Shown here one piece after another: positions 9,625 to 17,212 of a stretch of DNA of 32,054 bases. Each line of letters starts with the position of its first letter. Position 1 is the stretch's first letter. The notes under the pieces were generated by a model. It made no database searches and was not told where the DNA came from. It worked only from the letters and a program-made list of their open reading frames with translations. The translations under genes were made by a program, and so were the position numbers. The stretch is from an uncultured Pelagibacteraceae bacterium (lineage in GTDB: Bacteria; Pseudomonadota; Alphaproteobacteria; Pelagibacterales; Pelagibacteraceae), in NCBI GenBank assembly GCA_902587085.1, contig CACIJX010000005.1, forward strand, positions 1 through 32,054. The letters run 5' to 3'.

Positions 9625-10512
9625 TTACAACCTAATAGTGTGTATATTAATAATATTTTCAATACGTTTTAAGGAATTTTCTAAATCTTTTAAATTTTCT
9701 CTGCTCGAGGTAATAAAAATTAAAGTACAAAAAATAGCAATTAAAAAATTTATGATCATAAAAATATTATTGTTGTCTATTTTGAGAAAAACGAAACTAA
9801 ATACCATTATCATTAATAAAGACCTAAATAAGACCTGATACTTAAAAGTGGATATTATTGAAAGAGAATGAATTATAAGACCTTTCAGTGGCATTTTTGA
9901 AGGTCCAAAATATCTATACCCCCTCACAGTAGGTATACTATGAAGATTAGGTATATGTTTTTTTGCTGATCCAGCAAAATTACTCCATAAGCTTTTCTTA
10001 GATGATAATAATAATACATCATTTTTTGTTAAACAGCTGTAGTGACCAAAATTCATATTTTTGCCAGCAAAAATTAAAGTAATTAATTTATGTAATTTAT
10101 AAAGAATTGTAAAAACAGTTCCCTCTGTTCTTTTTTTTCTAGTAGCGACTACTGAAACATTTTTCTTTTCCAATACATTTTTTATAATTGATGGTAAATC
10201 ATCTGGATTATCTTCGCCATCACCGTCCATTAATAAAAGGTAATCAAAGTCTTTTTTTTCAGCCAAATACTTTATTCCAGTTGCGTTACACCTTGTGTGA
10301 CCTTGATTTTCCTTAATATTAATCAAATCAATAGATTTTATTTTTTTAAAATTAAATGAAGGTTTAGGCATTTTTTCAGTAGAACAATCGTTTACTATCA
10401 ATATAGAGAAATCCGCATCAAATATTGTAATATTTTTATCTATATTATCTAATAATTTGAAAAGTGACTTCCAGTCATTATAGCAAGGTATTAAAATTTT
10501 AAATTTTATCAT
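9625..10512 (-). CDS. Family 2 glycosyltransferase (dolichyl/polyprenyl-phosphate sugar synthase-like) with C-terminal TM helices
   Basis: ILIPCYNDWKSLFKLL, IVNDCSTE, ENQGHTRCNATGIKYL, LLMDGDGEDNPDDL; two hydrophobic C-terminal segments. Confidence 0.85.
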   Translation of the reverse strand: MIKFKILIPCYNDWKSLFKLLDNIDKNITIFDADFSILIVNDCSTEKMPKPSFNFKKIKSIDLINIKENQGHTRCNATGIKYLAEKKDFDYLLLMDGDGEDNPDDLPSIIKNVLEKKNVSVVATRKKRTEGTVFTILYKLHKLITLIFAGKNMNFGHYSCLTKNDVLLLSSKKSLWSNFAGSAKKHIPNLHSIPTVRGYRYFGPSKMPLKGLIIHSLSIISTFKYQVLFRSLLMIMVFSFVFLKIDNNNIFMIINFLIAIFCTLIFITSSRENLKDLENSLKRIENIINIHTIRL

Positions 10513-11807
10513 TCTAAATCTCTTACCTCAAATTCAATCATGGAGTCTTGAGCAATTATTTGTACTTTATTCATGTAAATAATTTCACACCCATATTTAG
10601 GTCTAGGTTTTAAATGATAGCATAAATTTCCTGCAAACCATTCGTTTCCGATGATTTTATTTATTTCTTTGATGCCTTTCTGTTCTAAATATTTTTTTAC
10701 TTTTATAGAAACCTCTTTTCCAGGATAATCTGTTCTTTTATCTATTTGAGATACTGAAATATAAGCATAAGCGAACGGTGAGAAAAAAAATAATATTATA
10801 AAAATTGATAAAAAACTCTTAATTTTATTTAAGTATATCTGAGACTTAAAGATATAAATTATCAAAGTCCCAAAAGTTAAATAAAAAGGAGTCATCCACA
10901 TAGTTCTAATTTTTACTCCCATTATCATCGATGTTAATAGCATAAAAAATACAGGAGCTATAGTTGTTAAAATTAGGAAAACTAATTTTTTATCTTTAAA
11001 ATTAATTTTAGGTTTTATTTTTTTTAAAAGAAAAAAAGACATTAAAAGAAAGGGAAACAAGAGACCAATTTGTTTTCCTAAAAAAATTAATGGATAAATT
11101 AAATGATCTACAAACCCCTCTGTCCCACCAGTTCTTTGCAGGCCGTAAGTAATGGTAATGTAATTATTTTCATTTAACCAAATTAAATGAGGTAATAAAA
11201 TTAATAACGTTATTGGTCCGGCAATAAAATAATGCGAAAATTTAATACCCTTCTTTAAGAAATATAAAAAAACAAGTTTTACTCCAATGATTAAATAAAT
11301 AAAAAGATATTTTGATAAAATTCCTAAACCAGCAAACAAACCTAAAAATACATAGTCAATTCCTTTATCATATCTAATGCACCTCCAAGTATAATAAATG
11401 GTTAAACTCCAAAAAGGTAATTGAGCAACATTTACGTTAAATTCTGGTGTCGTAAAGTTATAAAAATAAATACCTTCAAGTAAAAGCACTGATAAAAAAG
11501 CGAGATTTTTATTATTAAAAATTTCTTCAGAAAATTTGTAAACTGCAAAAAAAGCTATTACTACAAAAACTTGACTTAATAAATAATAAGCCCAATCTTG
11601 ACTTCCAAAAATTTGGTAAAATATTTCTACAGCAAAGGCGCTAAATGGTGGATGTTTATTAAAACCCCAATCCAAATTACTTCCCCATGCTAATGCCTCG
11701 ATAGTATCAAGTGGTAAATTTTTATTTGTTAAAGAAGGAATTAAAGTCCATATCAACAAATGACCTAATAAAAACGTGTAGAGTATTTTTGAGTTGTATT
11801 TATTCAT
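10509..11807 (-). CDS. GT39/ArnT-like integral-membrane glycosyltransferase
   Basis: Multi-TM; N-terminal acidic loop DTIEALAWGSNLDWGFNKHPPFSAFAVE typical of PMT_2/ArnT-like proteins; 4-bp overlap with the GT2 gene. Confidence 0.82.
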   Translation of the reverse strand: MNKYNSKILYTFLLGHLLIWTLIPSLTNKNLPLDTIEALAWGSNLDWGFNKHPPFSAFAVEIFYQIFGSQDWAYYLLSQVFVVIAFFAVYKFSEEIFNNKNLAFLSVLLLEGIYFYNFTTPEFNVNVAQLPFWSLTIYYTWRCIRYDKGIDYVFLGLFAGLGILSKYLFIYLIIGVKLVFLYFLKKGIKFSHYFIAGPITLLILLPHLIWLNENNYITITYGLQRTGGTEGFVDHLIYPLIFLGKQIGLLFPFLLMSFFLLKKIKPKINFKDKKLVFLILTTIAPVFFMLLTSMIMGVKIRTMWMTPFYLTFGTLIIYIFKSQIYLNKIKSFLSIFIILFFFSPFAYAYISVSQIDKRTDYPGKEVSIKVKKYLEQKGIKEINKIIGNEWFAGNLCYHLKPRPKYGCEIIYMNKVQIIAQDSMIEFEVRDLE

Positions 11808-11839: not shown

Positions 11840-11867
11840 TTGACACGAATATAAACGTTTATATACT
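11840..11867 (+). promoter_or_regulatory. dksA promoter with a 16-bp palindrome in the spacer
   Basis: TTGACA (11840-11845), 16 nt spacer, TATACT (11862-11867). The perfect palindrome ATATAAACGTTTATAT (11849-11864) spans the spacer and the 5' part of the -10. dksA ATG at 11883. Confidence 0.7.
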
Positions 11868-15098: not shown

Positions 15099-15103
15099 GA
15101 AAA

Positions 15104-15197
15104 CCTCCCTTTCGTTTAGTTTTCGTTTAGTTTAAATTTAAACCGTCCGAAGACAGAGTATCTCCCTCTCTCTTAGAACATGGGTGGGACGGTACCC
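15104..15197 (-). promoter_or_regulatory. Structured 5' leader candidate upstream of proteorhodopsin
   Basis: ACCGTCC (15142-15148)/GGACGGT (15187-15193) outer stem; inner hairpin AAGA-c-AGAG (15150-15158)/CTCT-c-TCTT (15166-15174); tandem 11-mer; GGGAGG Shine-Dalgarno just before the ATG. Confidence 0.5.
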
Positions 15198-15248
15198 AAA
15201 AAGAAAGTTAATTTGAAGCTTTTTCTTTAATAAAAAGTGTTGATTTTA

Positions 15249-15313: not shown

Positions 15314-17212
15314 TTGCAAGGAAAATACGAAAAAATTTACGATTCGTCTATAAACGACAGGGAGGGTTTTTGGAAAAATGTATCTGAAGATATTTTTTGG
15401 TATAAAAAACCAACAAAAATTCTTAATATAAGTAAGCCTCCATTTTACAAATGGTTTGAGGACGGTATTACCAACACTTGTTATAACGCTGTAGATTTTC
15501 ATGTCGATAATGGTCGTGGGGATAAAACGGCAATAATTTACGATAGTCCGATTACAGGTACAAAATACACATTATCATATAATGATCTTAAGGAAAAAGT
15601 TTCAATTTTTGCGGGGGCACTAAAAAATCAAGGAATTAAAAAAGGAGACAGAATAATAATTTATATGCCAATGATACCACAGGCAGTTGTTGCGATGCTG
15701 GCATGTGGAAGGATAGGTGCAATCCATTCTGTTGTTTTTGGAGGTTTTGCAGCCAACGAATTAGCAAGCAGAATTGATGACTCTAGAGCAAAAATTATTA
15801 TTTCTGCATCTTGTGGGTATGAACCTGGTAGAACAGTTCATTATAAACCTTTACTAAATAAAGCTATTGAGATTGCAAATCATAAACCAGAAAAATGTAT
15901 CATATGGCAAAGAGAAAAAGATAAAGCTGAGATTGATCCAATAAGAGATATTGATTGGACTGAAGCTTTGAAGGGAGCTAAGCCTGCTGAATGCGAAAAA
16001 ATGAATTCAAATGATTACGCCTATATACTTTACACATCAGGAACAACAGGAACTCCTAAAGGAATAGTTAGAGATATCGGTGGTCACATTGTAGCTTTAA
16101 AATGGACGATGAAGAATATTTATAACATTAATCAAGATGATGTTTGGTGGTCTGCAAGTGACATTGGATGGATAGTTGGTCACTCTTATATTGTTTATGC
16201 ACCGCTATTTTACGGTTGCACAACAGTTTTATTTGAAGGTAAACCAGTGGGTACTCCAGACGCAGGTGTTTTTTGGAGAATAATATCTGAATACAAGGTA
16301 AAATCTTTATTTACAGCTCCTACGGCAATTAGAGCAATCAAAAAAGAAGATCCAGACGGAAAATTCTTTAAAAAATATGATTTGTCTAAATTTGACACCT
16401 TATTTTTAGCGGGTGAACGTGCCGACCCAGATACAATTAAGTGGTTTGAAAAACTTTCTAATGCTCCCGTCATAGATCACTGGTGGCAAACAGAAACAAG
16501 TTGGGCCATAAGTGCTAATTGCGCTGGAATAGAAAAGTTTCCAATTAAATATGGTTCAGCGTTTAAACCTGTGCCAGGTTACGACTTAAAAGTTCTTAAT
16601 AGTGAGGGAAAAGAGAATAATGCAGGTCAGATGGGAGATATAGTTGTTAAGTTGCCTTTGCCTCCAGGAACTTTCCCAACTTTATGGAATGCAGATGAAA
16701 GATATAAAAAAGTTTATATGTCGACATATAAAGGTTATTACCAAACTTATGATGCAGGACATATTGATGAAGATGGTTATGTTTGGATCATGTCTAGAAC
16801 AGATGATATAATAAATGTAGCTGGTCACAGATTGTCTACAGGAGCAATTGAAGAAGTTTTAGCAGAACATAAGAATGTTGCGGAGTGCGCTGTGATAGGA
16901 ATTGCTGATAAACTAAAAGGTCAACTCCCAATTGGATTAATAGCTTTAAAAGCTGGAGTTGATAGGGATAATAAAGAAATTTCAAAAGAGTGTGTAACTT
17001 TAGTAAGAGAAAAAGTGGGTCCCGTTGCAGCTTTTAAATTAGCTATTGTTGTTAAAAGATTACCAAAAACAAGGTCTGGAAAAGTTTTAAGAGGAACTGT
17101 TAGGAAAATTGCAGACGGGGAAACCTATAAAATACCCCCAACAATTGATGATCCAGCAATATTAGACGAGATTAAAAAAGATTTAAAAGACAATAATATT
17201 TTAAAAGGTTAA
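15314..17212 (+). CDS. prpE: Propionate--CoA ligase / acyl-CoA synthetase (PrpE-like), TTG start
   Basis: 632 aa; YILYTSGTTGTPKGIVRDIGGH AMP-binding motif, WWSASDIGWIVGHSYIVYAPL, HWWQTETSW, and KTRSGKVLRGTVRKIADGE C-terminal lysine motif. Confidence 0.88.
   Translation: MQGKYEKIYDSSINDREGFWKNVSEDIFWYKKPTKILNISKPPFYKWFEDGITNTCYNAVDFHVDNGRGDKTAIIYDSPITGTKYTLSYNDLKEKVSIFAGALKNQGIKKGDRIIIYMPMIPQAVVAMLACGRIGAIHSVVFGGFAANELASRIDDSRAKIIISASCGYEPGRTVHYKPLLNKAIEIANHKPEKCIIWQREKDKAEIDPIRDIDWTEALKGAKPAECEKMNSNDYAYILYTSGTTGTPKGIVRDIGGHIVALKWTMKNIYNINQDDVWWSASDIGWIVGHSYIVYAPLFYGCTTVLFEGKPVGTPDAGVFWRIISEYKVKSLFTAPTAIRAIKKEDPDGKFFKKYDLSKFDTLFLAGERADPDTIKWFEKLSNAPVIDHWWQTETSWAISANCAGIEKFPIKYGSAFKPVPGYDLKVLNSEGKENNAGQMGDIVVKLPLPPGTFPTLWNADERYKKVYMSTYKGYYQTYDAGHIDEDGYVWIMSRTDDIINVAGHRLSTGAIEEVLAEHKNVAECAVIGIADKLKGQLPIGLIALKAGVDRDNKEISKECVTLVREKVGPVAAFKLAIVVKRLPKTRSGKVLRGTVRKIADGETYKIPPTIDDPAILDEIKKDLKDNNILKG

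Follow-up and report, generated by a model that had tools for sequence, protein, structure and literature searches.

A conserved structured RNA leader precedes the proteorhodopsin gene in three genera of SAR11 bacteria

SAR11 bacteria are among the commonest bacteria of the ocean, and proteorhodopsin, a light-driven proton pump, is widespread in marine bacteria. Why SAR11 makes abundant proteorhodopsin irrespective of light is a question on which the leader of the proteorhodopsin mRNA may bear. In P. ubique, proteorhodopsin is reported to be constitutive and made in large amounts, and light causes no change of its expression in growing cells (PMC3090418); post-transcriptional control has been proposed for SAR11 (PMC2864753). 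The window analysed here is the whole stretch of 32,054 nucleotides of contig CACIJX010000005.1, whose genome was placed in genus g1 of the SAR11 family f1. An initial annotation had pointed to a foldable leader with a strong Shine-Dalgarno (SD) sequence directly before a proteorhodopsin gene, and the leader sequence, the SD and their place before this ORF were all verified (Table 1).

Table 1. Coordinates of the proteorhodopsin locus and of the elements of its leader in the window
Feature	Position	Strand	Basis
Proteorhodopsin ORF, 256 aa	14328-15098	minus	ORF list, naming from translation
Proteorhodopsin leader	15182 to 15099	minus	directly 5' of the ORF
Acetyl-CoA-synthetase-like ORF, divergent from proteorhodopsin	15314-17212		ORF naming from translation
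Predicted -35, TTCAAA	15212..15217	minus	spacing of 17 to the -10
Predicted -10, TACCGT	15189..15194	minus	position conserved across genera
Predicted transcription start	15182 (+/- ~3 nt)	minus	placed seven nt past the -10
Hairpin P1, 5'-proximal, GUUC..AAGA.AGAG / CUCU.UCUU..GGAC	15145..15179	minus	MFE, congener folding, covariation in related groups
P2, perfect palindrome GTTTAAATTTAAAC	15130..15143	minus	symmetry across orthologs
A-rich repeat region TAAACGAAAACTAAACGAA	15111..15129	minus	near-invariant across genera
Shine-Dalgarno AGGGAGG	15104..15110	minus	GGGAG core invariant in alignment
P3, weak possible hairpin, GAAAAC (15124-15119) / GUUUUC (15104-15099)	15099..15124	minus	MFE

The minimum-energy fold (MFE) of the leader consists of P1, in which GUUC/GGAC lies under an inner hairpin, of P2, a GUUUAAAUUUAAAC hairpin, and of the weak P3, whose two strands flank the SD. 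The inner AAGA.AGAG/CUCU.UCUU hairpin reported at the outset is thus real and forms part of P1. The match between ACCGTCC (15193-15187) and GGACGGT (15148-15142), which had been read as a 7-bp outer stem, is likewise present in the sequence, but this stem is absent from the MFE; all 7 of its pairs are present in only four of the 17 g1 leaders and 6 of 7 in three more, whereas P1 forms in all 17. Since its 5' strand overlaps the predicted -10, that strand is probably not transcribed. The GGGU/ACCC pseudoknot also suggested overlaps the predicted promoter and is not conserved. The folding energy of this single leader is unremarkable (-29.0 kcal/mol, z = -1.24, with 22 of 200 shuffles equal or better), and the case therefore rests on comparative evidence.

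Proteorhodopsin is encoded in 151 of 197 family genomes, and upstream regions were gathered from about 190 orthologous loci, 148 of them non-redundant. The same order of elements was found in about 140 orthologous leaders from genera g1, g3 and g4: a promoter-like TTCNNN-N17-TANNNT, P1, the palindrome P2, the A-rich repeats, a GGGAG-type SD and the AUG. In g7, g9 and g12, a P1 of unrelated sequence is followed by UUUUUGUUUAAACAAAAA immediately 5' of the SD. A run of U after P1 in leaders of these genera (L106, L110, L227-L236 and L243) makes, immediately ahead of the proteorhodopsin gene, a terminator-like hairpin, behind which come a complementary A-run and the SD. Leaders of the sister family f2 (L249-L266) carry a perfect palindrome of A and T only (TAATTTTATAAAATTA and variants) that stops roughly 1 nt short of the SD, and no clear P1 hairpin was seen in them. 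Neither P1 nor P2 was found in most g5 leaders and in one f2 leader (L263).

A TTCNNN with a spacing of 16-17 bp to a TANNNN hexamer was present in 134 of 144 leaders, the spacing being exactly 17 in 132 of those, a count biased toward 17 by a script that tested 17 before 16. The -10 reads TACCGT, TATGGT, TAAGGT or TATTTA across genera, and the transcription start in the window is predicted from its position. Relative to the start so predicted, the first paired base of P1 falls at +1 to +9, mostly +4 to +7 (median about +6), with one outlier at -9.

To assess covariation, each column was simulated on the tree independently of the others, its number of changes being set to that observed, in a simplified, home-made test that is R-scape-like but is not R-scape. 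In three groups, the total covariation of P1 exceeded this tree-based null, with 5.76 observed versus 2.09 +/- 0.95 expected, 2.27 versus -1.12 +/- 1.07 and 4.11 versus -1.88 +/- 1.14, and in each group none of 200 simulations reached the observed value. Double changes were found at 6 of the 8 P1 pairs in group A2, and the paired fraction, counted together with the invariant pairs of P2 and P3, was 92.6% and fell to at most 71% when the partners were slid. P1 segments from 48 representatives also folded better than their dinucleotide shuffles (mean z -2.83). Because P1 aligns poorly in g1, the phylogenetic null covered the related groups, and the claim for P1 in the window is accordingly founded on the shared architecture, its formation in every g1 leader and the match to a covariance model.

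The pairing of P1 is kept, with many G-U pairs, though its primary sequence is not conserved between genera. Since both sequence and loops drift while the pairing is retained, the hairpin itself seems to matter. The same drift speaks against a metabolite riboswitch, which had been put forward together with a thermosensor for this leader: P1 lacks a conserved core of unpaired bases, its arms and loops differ freely from group to group (the loops of g3 are assorted and short, namely GCGA, GUGA, GAAA, UUCG and ACAA), the conserved letters sit in P2 and the SD region, and neither a ligand nor an expression-platform logic is visible. The thermosensor idea is weak: the SD is paired in neither P1 nor P2 and is looped by P3, which is weak, AU-rich and mostly invariant. 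A structured leader before a regulated-looking gene would suit a metabolite riboswitch or an RNA thermometer, but Rfam offers no match and light left expression unchanged in growing P. ubique (PMC3090418), and we regard both as very improbable. Attenuation, with P1 as an intrinsic terminator, would agree with the terminator-like P1 and U-run of g7, g9 and g12; it is scarcely credible for a highly expressed gene where no antiterminator is visible and where the U-run after P1 is absent, as in the window and in g1, g3 and g4.

In the P1 loop of the window (about 15169-15159), the SD-like GAGGGAGA is retained in 17 of 17 g1 leaders while the remaining P1 drifts. A CsrA-type GGA loop, sought by eye only, occurs in g1 and in some g3 loops but is missing from most of those of g4, and was not retained as a candidate.

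The specificity of the leader was examined with a covariance model, R1, built from 29 g3 leaders, whose E-values are rough. A scan of 79 genomes gave one confident match per genome, adjoining proteorhodopsin; the other matches were weak, with per-genome E-values of at least 0.002, and included further proteorhodopsin leaders. The window's own leader matched R1 with 24 bits (E = 0.018), and its genome does not appear among the matches of the stricter R1 genome scan. Some SAR11 genomes (loci G088:C4, G025:C22 and G038:C1) hold a second, divergent rhodopsin gene, about 45% identical, whose leaders are without P1-P2, and the idea that the leader marks rhodopsin genes generally was discarded. When the window and ten related leaders were compared with Rfam 15, as the initial annotation had advised, no family scored above its gathering threshold and the matches were at chance level; the leader thus matches no family of that catalogue, and no description of it was found in the literature searched, which consisted of openly licensed papers. 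The advised alignment of orthologs allowed the stems to be tested for covariation, and it was P1 that showed compensatory changes, the outer stem not being conserved. Taken together, the covariation of P1 beyond the null, the architecture shared between genera and the single confident model match at proteorhodopsin support the cis-acting RNA proposed at the outset: a structured RNA leader is conserved before proteorhodopsin in three genera.

P2 behaves differently from P1. Across the g1, g3 and g4 leaders it is a perfect palindrome of 14-20 bp, whose symmetry holds in 103 of the 104 distinct genes whose leaders were compared, and about nine changes of P2 type were inferred on the CDS tree, one being the sole asymmetric case (L148). 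Control stems of 6 bp with A/T loops of 4 nt elsewhere in the fetched DNA were symmetric at the chance rate (35 of 142, 25%), versus 101 of 101 for proteorhodopsin P2 in the same comparison, these 101 being related by descent. Two neighbouring bases at the centre of the palindrome are unable to pair with each other in a single RNA strand, so the symmetry of P2 is not accounted for by a simple hairpin. It might instead reflect a site in the DNA to which a dimer binds, or a duplex of RNA.

P2 could hence be a DNA operator downstream of the promoter, where a dimeric regulator would block elongation, P1 being a separate stabilising hairpin. Symmetry through the two central bases, repeated switching among palindromic types with a single asymmetric gene, the absence of G-U pairs from the P2 core as opposed to their abundance in P1, and P2 analogues across the order, in f2, g7, g9 and g12, that are perfect palindromes as well all argue for an operator. 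Nevertheless, these analogues abut the SD, which fits translation better, G-U pairs are tolerated at the outer P2 pairs in g1 and some g4 leaders, and P2 exists in one copy per genome with no enrichment of similar sites, unlike a regulon; we consider the operator possible but rather unlikely. P2 was also rejected as a regulon site, strict sites occurring once per genome, at proteorhodopsin, while chance matches elsewhere have asymmetric centres, and no enrichment of P2-like sites was found in the window's own genome. Nor are palindromes before start codons a general habit of SAR11, as they are rare outside proteorhodopsin among the genes sampled. The protein-binding role envisaged for the leader may apply to P2. 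As a tentative proposal, P2 may be a SAR11-wide, proteorhodopsin-specific dyad, symmetric to its innermost pair in at least three sequence classes, that a dedicated dimeric factor would read, either in the DNA or in base-paired RNA, and that would couple expression to a signal, beside a co-evolved 5' hairpin.

Downstream of P2, the SD lies mostly in or beside the loop of P3. P3 differs by one GC-to-AU substitution from one genus to another and has lost one base jointly in L051 and L059; as it is otherwise invariant, these changes are only suggestive of a real hairpin. They also count in favour of a strand-exchange switch, in which the 5' strand of P2, UAGUUU, would alternate among P2 itself, the 5' AACU beside P1 and the tail AAAACUA, with access to the SD governed via P3. 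The repeated AACUA copies are all able to pair with UAGUUU, and many g4 leaders let P1 extend into P2 on paper. However, the energy gained when P1 is extended by borrowing the 5' strand of P2 was not significant compared with shuffled flanks (Wilcoxon p = 0.066), and that extension was rejected; P2 and P3 are almost invariant within groups and a conserved ligand-binding core is absent. Such a switch therefore appears unlikely.

We propose, with about an even chance of being right, that the leader combines a 5'-protective hairpin with a ribosome-loading 5' UTR, in the manner of ompA, for a constitutive and abundant gene. Transcription would begin just upstream of P1, which would bury most of the 5' end and hinder both the removal of pyrophosphate by RppH and the 5'-end-dependent attack of RNase E. 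P2, if it acts as RNA, would form a second hairpin stacked immediately after P1, and the open A-rich stretch with the near-perfect SD that follows could allow efficient ribosome loading, the net result being a long-lived mRNA from which an abundant membrane protein would be translated at a high and largely constitutive level. The decay enzymes concerned are encoded in SAR11, RNase E/G in 8 of 8 genomes and the RppH family in 7 of 8, the exception being a genome 58% complete. In E. coli, the bla mRNA is stabilised by a 5' hairpin, which impedes RppH, and two protective elements are attributed to the ompA UTR (PMC3997798). Several observations count against this protective model: f2 leaders have P2 without P1, so that P1 is not universally needed; the symmetry of P2 through its centre is unexplained by a hairpin; and the approximately 2-fold higher proteorhodopsin expression of stationary-phase P. 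ubique in the dark (PMC3090418) indicates that some regulation exists. Moreover, with about five unpaired 5' nucleotides predicted, protection may be less than complete.

Around the leader, a terminator-like inverted repeat, AAATAGGGCGAGTTTTATAACTTGCCCTATTTTTTTT (about 14308-14271, minus strand), lies between proteorhodopsin and a downstream ferredoxin-like gene and is kept in related loci, and the mRNA may thus be largely monocistronic. The spacer between proteorhodopsin and the acs-like gene contains a TATCCCCAAAAAAAAA block (about 15280-15262, minus strand) conserved in g1 and g4. Elsewhere in the window, a 16-bp palindrome, ATATAAACGTTTATAT (about 11848-11863, minus strand), is found upstream of the ORF at 10509-11807, at a distance of about 49 nt.

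The leader would add an uncatalogued RNA family to SAR11 and, being confined to proteorhodopsin, offers a concrete and mutable element by which the level of the protein may be set, the symmetric P2 being a testable constraint beyond hairpin pairing. Among known systems, the leaders and motifs of Candidatus Pelagibacter ubique at rpsB, rpsL and ffh and the SAM-V motif (Meyer et al. 2009, PMC2704228) are likewise conserved, GC-richer intergenic RNAs; rhodopsin is unmentioned in the text of that paper, and the proteorhodopsin leader matches no Rfam family. P2 resembles bacterial dyad operators in its perfect dyad symmetry, centre included, but differs from them in being a single copy per genome, inside a transcribed leader and without a known regulator. 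In the ompA mRNA, a 5' hairpin is followed by further structure downstream and then by a single-stranded SD region. With the 5' UTR of E. coli ompA, as also with papA, the proteorhodopsin leader would share a hairpin, here predicted to lie near the 5' end of the transcript, and, with ompA, further structure downstream, an SD region predicted to be single-stranded and an mRNA that encodes an abundant membrane protein (for the role of the 5' hairpin, see PMC3997798); here P2 is palindromic and the start is a predicted one, and the likeness is one of layout, for which no sequence homology is claimed.
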